From Thermoflavifilum sp. (GTDB taxonomy: Bacteria > Bacteroidota > Bacteroidia > Chitinophagales > Chitinophagaceae), in NCBI RefSeq assembly GCF_014961315.1, contig NZ_CP063141.1:2232001-2296000 (forward strand): a DNA stretch of 64,000 nucleotides, written 5' to 3'. The notes under the pieces were generated by a model. It did not search any database and had not been told where the DNA came from. It was given only the letters and a program-made list of their open reading frames with translations. This document shows positions 35,833-40,215 of this stretch, piece by piece. Every line of letters starts with the position of its first letter. Positions within the stretch are counted from its first letter, which is position 1. The position numbers were made by a program, and so were the translations under genes.

Positions 35833-38331
35833 ATGCAACATCCGGTTCGCTATTTACCTGTATGGATATTGCTTTTTGTCGTTTCAATGGGTATATCCAG
35901 CGTGTATGCGCAGCGTATTCCATCTACCATGAATCTCGGCAATGTACAGGTTGATAATTTATCTGATGAACAAATCCGGCAATTCATGTTGCAGGCTCAG
36001 CAAAGCGGCCTGAGTGATGCGCAGATCAGTCAGATGGCATTAGCCCGGGGTATGAGTCCGGCTGAATTACAAAAATTGCAGGCCCGGATTGCACGCATCA
36101 GAACTCAGGATAGCCTGCGCATCAAGACGCTTCAGCAAGCAGGTGTAGAAGATACCGGCATACGCCGTTTTGGTTATGGGATGTCCGACAGTGCCGCAGT
36201 GTCTCGTCTGGTTAATGCCTTGAACATGTTACGCCCACACATTTTCGGCGAAGAATTATTTCGAAATCCTAACTTAACCTTTGAACCGGATTTAAATATT
36301 CCAACTCCTAAAAATTATCAGGTAGGACCTGGCGATGAAATTGTCATCGATATTTATGGATATGCTGAAGCGAGTTATCGGCTTACCGTATCGAATGAAG
36401 GATCCATTAATATTCCTTATATCGGCATTGTATATGTAAATGGACTTACCATCGATGAAGCAGCTCAACGCATCAAATCAAAATTATCCACGGTATATTC
36501 TACCATCAATACAGGAAAAACATCCGTGCAGGTAAGTATAGGTCGCATTCGCAGCATTAAAGTTACATTATTAGGTGAGGTTACTCAGCCCGGTACTTAC
36601 ACTTTACCTTCGCTGGCCACCGTATTTAATGCTTTGTATGCCAGTGGCGGGCCCACACCCAATGGTTCTTTTCGCGATATTGAAGTCATTCGTAATAATG
36701 TAGTCATTGATACGGTGGATATTTACGATTTTCTGATGAAAGGTGATCAGCGTAAAAACATTCGCCTGCAGGATCAGGATGTGATTCGAATCCCGGTGTA
36801 CCAGACACATGTACAAATCAATGGTCAGGTAAAGCGGCCCGGAATTTATGAACTGAAACCCGGCGAAACCTTGCGTGATGTTATCCGTTTTGCTGGAGGT
36901 TTCTCAGATAGTGCTTATACCGCTAATATCAAGGTTATTCGCTTGACGCCTGAAGAAAAGAAAGTAATTGATGTACCGGCCGCGGAATTTGCACATTTTA
37001 TTCCACAAAATGGCGATCAGTTTAGTGTTTCTTCTATCCTCGATAAATATCAAAATCGGGTGCGCATCACAGGAGCCGTATATCGCCCGGGGGTATATGA
37101 ATTAACGGAAGGACTTACCTTACGGGATTTGATTTTAAAGGCGGATGGACTTCGAGAAGATGCATTTTTACCGAGAGGTTATATCATTCGGCTAAATCCC
37201 GATCTCACCACCTCTATTGTGCAATTTGATGTAGCTAAAATCATGAGTGGTACATCCCCCGATATTCCTTTACAAAAAGAGGACATTGTGCAGGTATATT
37301 CCATTTTTGATTTACGCGATCAATATGCAGTTTCGATAGAAGGAGAAGTACGTAATCCCGGTTCATATCCTTATGCAGATAGCATGACACTGGAAGATTT
37401 AATTATGCAGGCCGGAGGGTTTAAGGTAGGTGCAACGCCCATGCGTATTGAGGTGGCACGAAGGGTAACCAATAGTAATCCTCGATCGCTATCGGCAAGG
37501 ATAGCTCAGGTATTTGAAGTAAATGTTGAAAAGGATCTTTCTTTACAGGCACGTAAATTCATTCTTCAACCCTTCGACGTAGTGGTTGTGCACAGCTCGC
37601 CCGGATATGAAACGCAAAAACAGGTCCGTATAGAAGGGGAAGTCCTGTATCCAGGTACTTATACCATCACCTCACGTGATGAACGTATCTCTGATTTAAT
37701 TCAACGTGCAGGTGGTCTTACAGCTTTCGCTTATCCAGAAGGGGCCTCGTTACGACGCCCTTCGCAATTTTTAACCGATACAAGTTTAACTACAAAAGAA
37801 AGAATGGCACTTCTTGCTCGTTTGCAGAGTGGGATATCGTCGGATAGCTTAAGTAAAATGAGTAATACTGAGCTGGAGATGATGATGGGTCAGCGAAATG
37901 AATTGGTAGGGATTGAATTACCGAAAATCTTAGCCCATCCTGGTTCCAGATATGATCTTATTTTAAAAGAAGGAGATATACTCACGGTTCCATCGTTATT
38001 GCAAACCGTGCAAATCAATGGTGAAGTGCTCTATCCTTCCGCAACGCCATTTGTGAAAGGTAAAGGTTTGAAATATTATATTTCGCGTGCAGGAGGCTTT
38101 TCCATGAATGCCAAAAAAGGTAGGGTATATGTGTTATATCCCAATGGTTTTGTAAAAGGTACAGGACATATATTGTTTATTCGAGATTATCCGCATGTGG
38201 AACCTGGATCGCAAATTTTTGTACCGCGCAAGCCTGAAAGACAAAAGGTAAGTTTTGGAGAGGTGATGGGTGTAACATCCAGTATGGTTTCACTTACGGC
38301 AGCTATACTGGCTATAATCAGGTTATTGTGA
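35833..38331 (+). CDS. Outer-membrane polysaccharide export protein (OPX/Wza-like, SLBB repeats)
   Basis: An 832-residue exported protein. A signal peptide (to VYAQ near residue 27) is followed by a helical Gln-rich segment, the Poly_export domain (YQVGPGDEIVIDIYGYAEA, around residue 160) and five or more SLBB domains such as VTLLGEVTQPGTYTLP, VQINGQVKRPGIYELKPG, VRITGAVYRPGVYEL, VSIEGEVRNPGSYPYAD and VRIEGEVLYPGTYTI. A hydrophobic segment near the C-terminus (SSMVSLTAAILAIIRLL) may be a membrane helix. OPX proteins form the channel through which EPS or capsule leaves the periplasm, together with a PCP (39133-40215). The TGA stop coincides with the first bases of the palindromic repeat array. 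Confidence 0.92.
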   Translation: MQHPVRYLPVWILLFVVSMGISSVYAQRIPSTMNLGNVQVDNLSDEQIRQFMLQAQQSGLSDAQISQMALARGMSPAELQKLQARIARIRTQDSLRIKTLQQAGVEDTGIRRFGYGMSDSAAVSRLVNALNMLRPHIFGEELFRNPNLTFEPDLNIPTPKNYQVGPGDEIVIDIYGYAEASYRLTVSNEGSINIPYIGIVYVNGLTIDEAAQRIKSKLSTVYSTINTGKTSVQVSIGRIRSIKVTLLGEVTQPGTYTLPSLATVFNALYASGGPTPNGSFRDIEVIRNNVVIDTVDIYDFLMKGDQRKNIRLQDQDVIRIPVYQTHVQINGQVKRPGIYELKPGETLRDVIRFAGGFSDSAYTANIKVIRLTPEEKKVIDVPAAEFAHFIPQNGDQFSVSSILDKYQNRVRITGAVYRPGVYELTEGLTLRDLILKADGLREDAFLPRGYIIRLNPDLTTSIVQFDVAKIMSGTSPDIPLQKEDIVQVYSIFDLRDQYAVSIEGEVRNPGSYPYADSMTLEDLIMQAGGFKVGATPMRIEVARRVTNSNPRSLSARIAQVFEVNVEKDLSLQARKFILQPFDVVVVHSSPGYETQKQVRIEGEVLYPGTYTITSRDERISDLIQRAGGLTAFAYPEGASLRRPSQFLTDTSLTTKERMALLARLQSGISSDSLSKMSNTELEMMMGQRNELVGIELPKILAHPGSRYDLILKEGDILTVPSLLQTVQINGEVLYPSATPFVKGKGLKYYISRAGGFSMNAKKGRVYVLYPNGFVKGTGHILFIRDYPHVEPGSQIFVPRKPERQKVSFGEVMGVTSSMVSLTAAILAIIRLL

Positions 38332-38384
38332 CTCACCCTTTTTGGTTCCCCTCTCTACAGGTAGAGAGGGGATGTGGGAGAGAG
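38331..38384. repeat. Palindromic repeat, copy 1
   Basis: A ~54-nt imperfect palindrome: ACTCACCC, then a core hairpin with arms CCCCTCTCTAC and GTAGAGAGGGG around AG (CTCTCTACAGGTAGAGAG), then GGGAGAGAG. Its first base is the last base of the OPX stop codon. The loop type TACAGGTA is shared with copy 5. Confidence 0.85.
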
Positions 38385-38393
38385 AAAATAAAA

Positions 38394-38447
38394 ACCCACC
38401 CCTTTGGTTCCCCTCTCTATAAAAATAGAGAGGGGATAGGGGAGAGT
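38394..38447. repeat. Palindromic repeat, copy 2
   Basis: ACCCACCCC start, core arms CCCCTCTCTAT and ATAGAGAGGGG around an A-rich loop, end GGGGAGAGT. It lies 12 nt upstream of the DUF559 start codon, so it could influence that gene's translation. Confidence 0.85.
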
Positions 38448-38459
38448 CAGTTGTTCATC

Positions 38460-38819
38460 ATGAACAAAAGTAAAATTATATTATTAGCACGTGAACTCAG
38501 GAAAAAGCAAACGCCTGAAGAGAAGCTTTTGTGGGAAGAATTAAGGAATAGAAGATTGAATGGTTTAAAGTTTTTACGTCAACATCCTATTATTTATGAA
38601 AATGATCCCAACAAAGGATTATTATTTTTTATTGCTGATTTTTATTGTGCTGAAAAGCGATTGGTTATCGAGCTGGATGGAAAGATTCATGATTTTCAGA
38701 AAGAATATGATGCAAATAGAGATTTTATTTTAAAACAATTAAACTTGCGTGTACTGAGGATTAAAAATGAGGAGTTGAAAGATATGAAGGAAGTAAAGAG
38801 AAAGATATTGAATTGCTGA
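38460..38819 (+). CDS. DUF559 (Vsr-like) endonuclease-domain protein
   Basis: A 119-residue protein of the DUF559 family, related to very-short-patch-repair/PD-(D/E)XK nucleases. The N-terminus has ARELRKKQTPEEKLLWEELR, and NRRLNGLKFLRQHPI is the usual substrate-facing segment. The putative metal site is FFIADFYC (D60) and LVIELDGKIHD (E71, D73, H77). The ATG at 38460 is right because upstream codons would translate the palindromic repeats. It lies between two repeat copies on the left and four on the right, and its TGA stop overlaps the first base of copy 3. It splits the OPX and PCP genes, so it looks like an inserted nuclease-repeat unit. The function is not known. Confidence 0.85.
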   Translation: MNKSKIILLARELRKKQTPEEKLLWEELRNRRLNGLKFLRQHPIIYENDPNKGLLFFIADFYCAEKRLVIELDGKIHDFQKEYDANRDFILKQLNLRVLRIKNEELKDMKEVKRKILNC

Positions 38820-38870
38820 CTCACCCCTTGCGTTCCCCTCTCTATAAAATAGAGAGGGGTTGGGGGGAGA
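38819..38870. repeat. Palindromic repeat, copy 3
   Basis: Starts ACTCACCCC at the last base of the DUF559 TGA stop. The core arms CCCCTCTCTAT and ATAGAGAGGGG enclose AAA; the right end GGGGGGAGA is less symmetric than in copy 4. Confidence 0.85.
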
Positions 38871-38880
38871 AAAAATATAA

Positions 38881-38936
38881 ACTCACCCCTTTAATTCCCC
38901 TCTCTATTTTGTAGAGAGGGGTCAGGGAAGAGTGAG
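38881..38936. repeat. Palindromic repeat, copy 4
   Basis: The best full-length palindrome of the set: ACTCACCCC at the left pairs with GAGTGAG at the right, and core arms CCCCTCTCTA and TAGAGAGGGG enclose a TTTTG loop. It starts 62 nt after copy 3. Confidence 0.85.
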
Positions 38937-38980
38937 AAATAACTCATGTAATCTTTGTTTCTGCCTAAATAAAACTTAAA

Positions 38981-39037
38981 ACTCACCCCTTTTGATTCCT
39001 TCTCTCTACAGGTAGAGAGGGGATAGGGAAGAGTGAG
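38981..39037. repeat. Palindromic repeat, copy 5
   Basis: ACTCACCCC start, core TCTCTCTACAGGTAGAGAG with the TACAGGTA loop of copy 1, end GAGTGAG. A 44-nt AT-rich spacer separates it from copy 4. Confidence 0.85.
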
Positions 39038-39049
39038 AAAATACAAACA

Positions 39050-39099
39050 CACCCCTTTAATTCCCCTCTCTATAAGATAGAAAGGGGTCAGGGGTGAGT
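39050..39099. repeat. Palindromic repeat, copy 6
   Basis: ACACCCC/-type start with right end GGGGTGAGT, which pairs as outer arms. The core TCTATAAGATAGA carries one change (AAAGGGG for GAGGGG). It lies 33 nt before the PCP start codon. Confidence 0.8.
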
Positions 39100-39132
39100 A
39101 AGTAAAGTTTCTCCATCCATAACGCATTCGAT

Positions 39133-40215
39133 ATGACCGAAACACATCGCCCCATTCCCGTGGAGGATGAGATTTCGATTAAAGATCTCATCCTGAAATT
39201 CAGAGAATGGATATATTACTTGCGTACTAAATGGTTGACATTGTTGATATGTGGGTTAGTGGGTGCATTGCTGGGTTTAGCTTATGCCTGGTTGAAGAAA
39301 CCGAAATATGTCGCCACGCTCACCTTTGCGCTGGAAGAAAAATCCAGTAGTGGATTACTTTCTTCCTATGCAGGTTTAGCCAGTCAGCTTGGCTTTGATC
39401 TGGGAAGTACGGGTGGGGGCGTGTTTTCCGAAAGTAATATCATGGACTTGATGCAATCGAGGCTCATGATCACCCAGGCATTGCTGGATACGATTTATGA
39501 TATACATGGCCGCATGATGAGTCTGGCTGATTATTATATCGACATGAATCATTTGCGTAAAGCATGGAGCAAGAGCACGAATATACCTCCACATATTTCT
39601 TTCCCACCAGGTATTTCCGCCGATTCATTGACCTATATCCAGGACAGCCTGATGGGGACTTTCTGTACATATATCAACAAGCATTATCTGGATATTGAAA
39701 AACCGAATAAAGAAGGGAGCATCATTCAGGTAACCTGTACAGCACCCGATGAGTTGTTTGCGAAAAGATTTACCGAAGGTCTGGTTAAACATGTCTCTTT
39801 ATTTTATATCCAGACCAAGACAAAACGGGCGTCCCGGAATGTAGATCTTTTACAGGCCAGGCTCGATTCGGTCAGGCGTGCTTATTTAGGGGCTTTGTAT
39901 GGAACGGCTATTAGTACAGACCTAAATCTCAATCCTGCTCGTGCAGTAGTAAGTGTGCCAGCTATTAATAAGCAAACACAAGCACAAATTTTAGGAGCTG
40001 AATATGCCGAACTGGTGAAAAATCTCGAGATTGCAAGGATGACCCTGCTTCAGGAAACTCCGCTGATACAGGTGATCGATAAACCTATATTGCCGTTGAA
40101 GGAAATGAGACTGGGGAAGATAAAGGGTTTTATAATTGGTGGATTTCTCGGCGTATTATTAGCTGGATTTCTTCTTTCAATGATGAAAATGTACCATGAT
40201 ATTATGTATGGATAG
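39133..40215 (+). CDS. Polysaccharide co-polymerase / chain-length determinant (Wzz-like)
   Basis: A 360-residue inner-membrane protein of the PCP family. A cytoplasmic N-tail precedes transmembrane helix 1 (TLLICGLVGALLGLAYAW, near residue 36). A periplasmic domain with coiled-coil stretches follows, then the proline-rich LPLKEMR and helix 2 (IIGGFLGVLLAGFLLSMM) near the C-terminus. It lacks the C-terminal tyrosine-kinase domain found in Wzc. It would set polysaccharide chain length and connect the inner membrane to the OPX channel. In other EPS clusters it directly follows the OPX gene; here about 800 bp of repeats and the DUF559 gene intervene. Confidence 0.87.
   Translation: MTETHRPIPVEDEISIKDLILKFREWIYYLRTKWLTLLICGLVGALLGLAYAWLKKPKYVATLTFALEEKSSSGLLSSYAGLASQLGFDLGSTGGGVFSESNIMDLMQSRLMITQALLDTIYDIHGRMMSLADYYIDMNHLRKAWSKSTNIPPHISFPPGISADSLTYIQDSLMGTFCTYINKHYLDIEKPNKEGSIIQVTCTAPDELFAKRFTEGLVKHVSLFYIQTKTKRASRNVDLLQARLDSVRRAYLGALYGTAISTDLNLNPARAVVSVPAINKQTQAQILGAEYAELVKNLEIARMTLLQETPLIQVIDKPILPLKEMRLGKIKGFIIGGFLGVLLAGFLLSMMKMYHDIMYG

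Follow-up and report, generated by a model that had tools for sequence, protein, structure and literature searches.

Two reports (PMC3116915, PMC3733652), in the parts accessible to us, describe repetitive extragenic palindromic (REP) elements, REPINs and REP-associated tyrosine transposases (RAYTs), together REPtrons, as short tagged hairpins that stand singly or in pairs beside one enzyme gene and elsewhere, with the type of repeat going with the type of enzyme. The EDxHD homing endonucleases are the second system of reference, and the accessible text of PMC9403480 assigns to them the DUF559 gene of a hot-spring cyanobacterium. Here we describe a DUF559 gene bracketed by six palindromic repeats in a stretch of 64,000 nucleotides from Thermoflavifilum sp. 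(contig NZ_CP063141.1, positions 2,232,001 to 2,296,000; hereafter the window), where the block stands between an OPX-type polysaccharide export gene and a Wzz-type polysaccharide co-polymerase (PCP) gene. This block is probably a resident copy of a mobile cassette, that is, a DUF559 gene ended by C/T-first hairpins that often bear an outward CTCACC/GGTGAG tag. Compared at the sequence level, such loci share a cassette structure, recur in multiple phyla, lie between genes as well as in frame within them and have uninterrupted relatives, and nuclease-free hairpins occur elsewhere. The cassette would be a REPtron-like or homing-like element built on a Vsr/EDxHD nuclease, whose cleavage and movement we infer, and the solo hairpins we read as its putative non-autonomous copies.

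The association between gene and hairpins was measured in two samples. Set D held the 113 best DUF559 places in genomes of the family Chitinophagaceae (E ≤ 5.1e-26, weaker places being left out) and set E the best 80 of at least 574 confirmed stretches from a scan of named genomes, with phyla taken from record titles. Flanks were scored for a C/T-first hairpin within 300 bp of DUF559, which was found at 136/226 flanks versus 5/214 control blocks in set D (Fisher p 7e-45) and at 101/148 flanks versus 4/269 controls in set E (Fisher p 3e-54), flanks being taken as independent in both tests. Hairpins stood on both sides at 50 loci of set D and 44 of set E, and on one side only at 36 and 17, respectively. 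Because the control blocks, 1-1.3 kb away, were mostly coding, the test was repeated for coding and non-coding bases apart, giving hairpin densities per kb, near versus far, of 2.26 versus 0.06 (35-fold) and 4.15 versus 0.26 (16-fold), respectively. Near the gene, 300 hairpins were C/T-first and 3 G/A-first, and at least one hairpin was present at 17 of the 18 loci titled Cyanobacteria, Chloroflexi, Patescibacteria or Proteobacteria (in some cases placed there from the genus name). The same association appeared among whole genomes: 66 of the 147 genomes of the family had a strong DUF559 match, and three or more copies of the hairpin pattern were present in 37/66 of these versus 4/81 of the others (p 2e-12; the 10 genomes with weak matches only were counted as lacking DUF559). 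A reversed control pattern gave 5 forward places, in 4/147 genomes, and looser copies of the core reached up to 35 in the genomes of the family. Nuclease and hairpin sequences also co-varied. Across 145 loci, after removal of those with internal stops, short or duplicate domains or no hairpin, nuclease identity correlated with hairpin similarity (rho 0.16; Mantel test, 0/999 permutations), and the correlation within genomes was rho 0.31 (p 0.007; 77 pairs, not independent). The preliminary description of this DNA had proposed a nuclease-linked repeat family resembling REP/RAYT with another nuclease, and the flank enrichment across several phyla, the genome counts and the co-variation, together with the block-free OPX-PCP pair of relatives described below, strongly support that link. 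DUF559 may, as that description further suggested, act on the hairpins themselves.

The hairpins share further anatomy with one another. The motif CTCACC, or GGTGAG on the other side, lay within 25 nt of 57/172 and 67/133 hairpins versus 4/280 and 4/215 background positions, pointing away from the nuclease in 94 cases and towards it in 33. Among 41 hairpins fetched by pattern, 12 of them from two genomes (G039 or G045), the tag stood on one side in 25 and on both sides in none; no DUF559 gene was detected inside these 41 loci with a motif that recovers only 80/193 known domains. To judge from these positions, the one-sided layout is that of REP elements with another tag. The two ends of a cassette were inverted relative to each other in 51 of 92 cases, direct in 30 and tied in 11, so that strict terminal inverted repeats were rejected as a description. 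In Sinorhizobium meliloti Ak57, paired inverted hairpins bearing the tag CCCTCACCCTAA stand on either side of the nuclease gene, and CCCCTCACCCTAACCCTCTCCCCAGAGGGGCGAGGGG adjoins the DUF559 gene ycjD of E. coli K-12 (both by eye).

Many cassettes lie inside other genes. At least 40 in-frame host residues were present on both sides of the nuclease domain at 53/113 loci of set D and 22/80 of set E, and 49/59 embedded Chitinophagaceae loci had hairpins. For 25 proteins with an embedded or end-joined nuclease domain, family models (other hosts were labeled by eye) placed among the interrupted hosts the leucyl- (LeuRS), isoleucyl- and methionyl-tRNA synthetases, methionine synthase (MetH), chorismate synthase, CinA, HsdR, HsdM, riboflavin synthase and UDP-GlcNAc 2-epimerase. 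The reading frame continues through the insert, around which no intron or intein was seen, and no intein family was found among the E 1e-6 matches of 20 embedded or end-joined proteins. The hairpins themselves are translated as linkers such as LTPNPSPKERG and PSPLERELEGEV. Fusion in frame at one end was also observed, with HisA/HisF-type (L172, Pedobacter), ArgB (L035, Chitinophagaceae) and PurQ (L201, Hymenobacter) proteins, and an HsdR-like frame of genome G052 (L006) contains, besides the DUF559 domain with its hairpins, a GIY-YIG-like stretch (by eye).

LeuRS provided the only congener pair of a filled and an uninterrupted gene: that of G052 contains the cassette and an extra hairpin and that of its congener G138 neither, the borders of the pair being blurred by divergence, and 19/20 aligned LeuRS had no insert at the cassette site. 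A nuclease tree of 149/193 loci (107 columns, host-site labels by hand, many forks unresolved) showed that nucleases of several genera occupy shared host sites. It required 16 changes of host label overall (minimum 10, shuffled mean 45.8), with 8 for LeuRS site 1 alone, at least 3 of which are forced by starred branches. These changes imply that the nucleases mostly stay at one site, as the tree would have it, yet have moved between host genes.

The protein encoded in the window was modeled with a predicted local distance difference test (pLDDT) score of 92.7. In a structure ranking, the model matched a gonococcal protein (3hrl, Z 13.5), I-Bth0305I (Z 11.1), Vsr (Z 8.7; root-mean-square deviation (rmsd) 2.1 over 92 residues) and TnsA (Z 7.2; rmsd 4.4); with Foldseek, 3hrl alone fell below E 0.001. 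Sequence profiles agreed for 3hrl and I-Bth0305I, the EDxHD profile giving E 4.4e-7. Residues E21, D60, E71, D73 and H77, which we take to be catalytic, were invariant in 30 aligned proteins. DUF559 thus resembles, in its predicted structure, a Vsr/EDxHD nuclease of the PD-(D/E)XK fold, for which nuclease activity is predicted.

The Vsr-like fold is also what would be expected if DUF559 were an ordinary Vsr-like repair or restriction nuclease and the hairpins passive terminators or scars. Several DUF559 hosts are restriction genes, and the accessible text of PMC12907096 reports that a Caulobacter DUF559 protein triggers the SOS response when a cytosine methyltransferase is missing. Repair genes would, however, be unexpected in frame within LeuRS, MetH and chorismate synthase beside hairpins, and terminators would be unexpected inside reading frames, yet most embedded Chitinophagaceae loci have such hairpins. 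Of four more open reading frames near the window gene, one encodes a MurJ-like flippase and one a glycosyltransferase, the other two matching nothing in Pfam; no methyltransferase was found among these four. Taken together, we consider an ordinary repair or restriction role improbable. PADLOC returned only weak matches, the best at 2.3e-4 to DpdF.

Within the window, the interval between the two polysaccharide genes is made up as listed in Table 1, with two hairpin units to the left of the nuclease gene and four to its right. Units 1 and 3 begin at the base directly after the stop codons of the OPX gene and of the nuclease gene, respectively. The latter gene, which runs from ATG to TGA over the listed span, matched PF04480 at 2.4e-28 (the profile being run on the longer frame from 38328) and is single-copy in its own genome (2.83 Mb, one contig).

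Table 1 Features between and around the OPX and PCP genes (positions in the window).
Feature	Positions	Strand	Remarks
OPX-type polysaccharide export gene (Poly_export + SLBB repeats)	35833..38331	+	stop codon 38329-38331
Hairpin unit 1	38332..38384	.	core 38347-38372; left end of block
Hairpin unit 2	38394..38447	.	core 38409-38436
DUF559 nuclease-like gene	38460..38819	+	119 aa; Vsr/EDxHD fold predicted
Hairpin unit 3	38820..38871	.	core 38835-38859
Hairpin unit 4	38882..38937	.	core 38897-38921
Hairpin unit 5	38982..39037	.	left arm degenerate; weakest fold, z -1.7
Hairpin unit 6	39048..39100	.	one arm mismatch; right end of block; GGGGTGAG at 39092-39099
PCP gene (Wzz-type chain length)	39133..40215	+	downstream neighbor

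The exact core CCCCTCTCTA..TAGAGAGGGG occurs in 4/6 units and did not arise in 100 shuffles of the window; the left arm is altered in unit 5 (CCTTCTCTCTA) and the right arm in unit 6 (TAGAAAGGGG). The left outer arm CTCACCCC is retained, with variants, across the units, and the right outer arm GGGTGAG is exact in unit 6 only, the others showing forms such as GGGAGAGAG or GGGAAGAGTGAG. At the feet of all six, CTCACC/GGTGAG-like arms were recognized by eye. RNA folding gave z values of -2.7, -3.4, -4.7, -4.5, -1.7 and -3.2 for units 1 to 6, with 2, 0, 0, 0, 6 and 2 of 200 shuffles each folding as well. Coordinates, folding and domain models thus confirm the arrangement first described, six palindromic repeats around a DUF559 gene in a block between OPX and PCP. 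The statement that each copy has the core hairpin and outer arms is slightly overstated, in view of the changed arms of units 5 and 6 and of GGGTGAG, exact in one unit.

The exact core was found at 4 places in the whole genome, all at this locus, and a dispersed family of the exact repeat was therefore rejected. A looser core gave 19 places: 4 at this locus, plus a cluster of 15 at 906-967 kb whose inner sequence differs. This cluster (906018-967204, L066-L080) is a second hairpin family, with 15 copies in 60 kb, mostly with a CCTCACCCTGT-like tag, and the stretch also has GIY-YIG matches (at 943.9 and 909.1 kb) and no DUF559. Elsewhere in this genome, GIY-YIG genes lie directly behind tRNA genes (158816-159675, L280-L282; 2555644, L284; 1941828, L279). 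Behind each comes an incomplete tRNA copy with a G/C-rich palindrome, for example GTCCCGGCTCAGCCGGGAC or CCTGCCTGCCGGCAGGCAGG, inside its middle part or in place of it (tRNA parts by eye), and at 158.8 kb the gene-plus-fragment unit occurs three times with 325 bp spacing. From their layout, these units look like a counterpart of the DUF559 cassette, again a nuclease with a palindrome, that targets tRNA genes.

The history of the locus could be followed among relatives. A PCP gene was present in 3/5 genus members, in all three of which the nuclease gene, surrounded by hairpins, precedes it, and the remaining 2/5 genomes had no PCP match. Outside the genus, an OPX-like tail was found upstream of PCP in 22/27 loci (by eye, last 60 residues). 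The PCP match began 10-104 bp after the OPX stop in 20 of these 22 and 253 and 370 bp after it in the other two, where no such hairpins were seen by eye. Of the other five loci, two had stretches that contained no upstream gene, two had a different gene there and one a divergent tail. These distances bear out the earlier statement that OPX and PCP usually adjoin, and show the pair without the block in relatives, which the preliminary description had named as support. Because 3/3 PCP-bearing congeners have the block and 20/22 outside relatives have OPX and PCP close together, the block is most likely an insertion that occurred before the three sampled species with PCP diverged. Nuclease dN/dS among the three was 0.05, 0.10 and 0.12, and the window protein has therefore been kept by purifying selection.

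The array might instead be a local regulatory structure of the exopolysaccharide operon, forming mRNA hairpins between OPX and PCP, with its likeness to other DUF559 flanks being secondary. The strong predicted RNA hairpins and the presence of the block in every genus member with PCP would agree with this. The close spacing of the gene pair in nearly all relatives does not, nor do the number of units, which varies among congeners (6 here, 10 in G113 and 3 in G014, by one pattern), the lack of any Rfam family at gathering score within 38200-39200 and the recurrence of the same structure at unrelated loci. We regard a purely regulatory origin as very unlikely.

Several observations weigh against a mobile cassette. 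About a quarter of DUF559 loci (27/113 and 19/80) have no hairpin within 300 bp, the tag accompanies only 33% and 50% of hairpins, the inversion of the ends is a majority and no rule, and the overall correlation of nuclease with hairpin is weak. Two genomes with dispersed hairpins, 35 in G039 and 15 in G045, lack any DUF559 match at E ≤ 0.001, and in the Thermoflavifilum genome the looser hairpins of the 906-967 kb cluster, 15 in number, stand without DUF559. The units of G113 are near-identical (mean similarity 0.92), and this array, resembling a plain tandem duplication, would plainly have grown by local copying. The window units are no more alike mutually (0.71) than to those of G113 (0.74), and therefore no recent copying burst is visible here. 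Two mitoribosomal proteins rank between I-Bth0305I and Vsr in the structure comparison (Z 9.4, 8.9), so that a Z of 7-9 is not specific. The Caulobacter protein is a mismatch-repair nuclease according to its authors' hypothesis, as given in the accessible text of PMC12907096. Finally, the E. coli, Azospirillum and Sinorhizobium comparisons yielded neither an empty site exact to the base nor a target duplication. The preliminary description had expected a survey of the genome and its relatives to find repeats and DUF559 genes together, and they are indeed enriched together, though not always so. The two situations that it held to speak against a link, repeats without DUF559 and DUF559 without flanking repeats, both occur, as minorities: a strong match was missing in 2/23 genomes with at least 9 hairpins, and the bare loci are those counted above.

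The genomes rich in hairpins and lacking DUF559 bear on the possibility that another enzyme spreads the hairpins and that DUF559 is cargo or lands preferentially in existing hairpin clusters. The cluster of related hairpins with a GIY-YIG gene in the Thermoflavifilum genome would fit this, as would the CGTC-type palindromes, for which a dedicated transposase is not known according to the accessible text of PMC3733652. On the other side, the embedded cassettes that were read contain the nuclease and the hairpins in one host gene and no further gene, L006 with its GIY-YIG-like stretch being the exception; the cassette site is empty in nearly all aligned LeuRS; and nuclease and hairpin sequences co-vary, within genomes too. 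Spread by another enzyme is accordingly unlikely in our assessment, although it is the most probable of the alternatives considered.

The comparisons for an empty site gave the following. Some match to the 1.2 kb ycjD region was present in 5375/5426 E. coli genomes, with at least 80% covered in 3330. The locus (L244, fabI-ycjD-sapF in K-12) varies between strains in the six regions read. Four have no annotated DUF559, three lying beside sapF (L251, L252, L256) and one beside fabI (L253), and are occupied by efflux genes, behind a TetR-type regulator in L253 and with an IS4-type transposase also in L252; ycjD is truncated in L254 and intact in L255. Absence of ycjD was rejected as a clean empty site, since those four were read on one side, none across both fabI and sapF, and ycjD was not sought elsewhere; judged from these regions, the difference is a replacement or rearrangement. 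Among Azospirillum megaplasmids, all 7 records covering at least 80% of the region cover 99-100% of it. No clean gap was found in Sinorhizobium among the matches listed, and one 25 kb pSymB query had no suitable element. One DUF559 query matched 42/72,556 plasmid records, some as long as a chromosome, and 3/50,697 phage records, which does not support plasmid or phage carriage as the main route.

For the mobile cassette, we propose that the nuclease nicks or cuts new sites, hairpins or both, and that the break would then be filled, by repair or replication, with a copy of the cassette or of a solo hairpin, roughly in the manner of a homing endonuclease or of REP/RAYT. Inserts would be tolerated in frame because the hairpins, free of stop codons, translate into short linkers with many Pro, Ser, Gly and charged residues, so that the host protein could contain the nuclease as an internal domain. 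The window cassette would have entered behind the OPX stop before the three PCP-bearing congeners split, the number of hairpins changing later. Between homing, in which an empty site would be cut, and the REP/RAYT manner, in which hairpin ends would be cut and joined, the fold favors the former and the anatomy the latter.

We lean, by a narrow measure, towards a wider interpretation in which these loci form a pan-bacterial and largely overlooked mobile class. A lone DUF559 nuclease of the Vsr/EDxHD fold would mobilize CTCACC-tagged hairpins, adding a third superfamily to the REP-like ones, able also to enter essential genes in frame and without splicing, and E. coli ycjD, with its tagged hairpin in K-12 and its strain-variable locus, would be a living or relic member. 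In the open-access literature, we found no paper joining DUF559 with palindromic repeats or in-frame insertion. The EDxHD assignment of one DUF559 gene was already known. If correct, this interpretation would assign a testable role to a widespread domain of unknown function, provide a source enzyme for the C/T-rich hairpin repeats of many genomes and reveal a mobile element living inside essential proteins without splicing; ycjD of K-12 makes the idea testable in a laboratory strain.

Among known systems, the DUF559 cassette would work like REP/RAYT or like homing endonucleases without demonstrably belonging to either. With REPtrons it shares the organization outlined at the outset (PMC3116915, PMC3733652, as far as accessible), tagged hairpins flanking the enzyme gene at most, not all, DUF559 loci. 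It differs in the enzyme, which has a predicted Vsr/PD-(D/E)XK fold instead of the HUH/Y1 tyrosine transposase of RAYTs; in the tag, CTCACC/GGTGAG instead of the GTAG of REPs, which was absent by eye from the feet of the six window units; and in the frequent insertion of its hairpins in frame along with the nuclease gene. I-Bth0305I and the other EDxHD homing endonucleases have the same predicted catalytic fold and are likewise small nucleases within conserved genes. Unlike them, DUF559 inserts in frame with no intron or intein seen, has hairpins at its ends and nuclease-free hairpins elsewhere, and, in the 119-aa window protein, has no added DNA-binding part. The predicted fold is also shared with Vsr mismatch endonucleases, from which DUF559 differs in being tied to hairpin repeats and gene insertion, with no methyltransferase among the neighbors tested. 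TnsA of Tn7 is a related-fold nuclease, by a middling match of the model, that serves transposition. TnsA acts together with other Tns proteins, whereas the DUF559 nuclease stands alone. Rickettsia palindromic elements (RPEs) are, in the accessible text of PMC10969869, palindromes in frame within unrelated metabolic genes. In-frame palindromes in unrelated genes are found in the DUF559 relatives, the window copy being intergenic. RPEs carry, to our knowledge, no nuclease gene, whereas the DUF559 elements contain their own.

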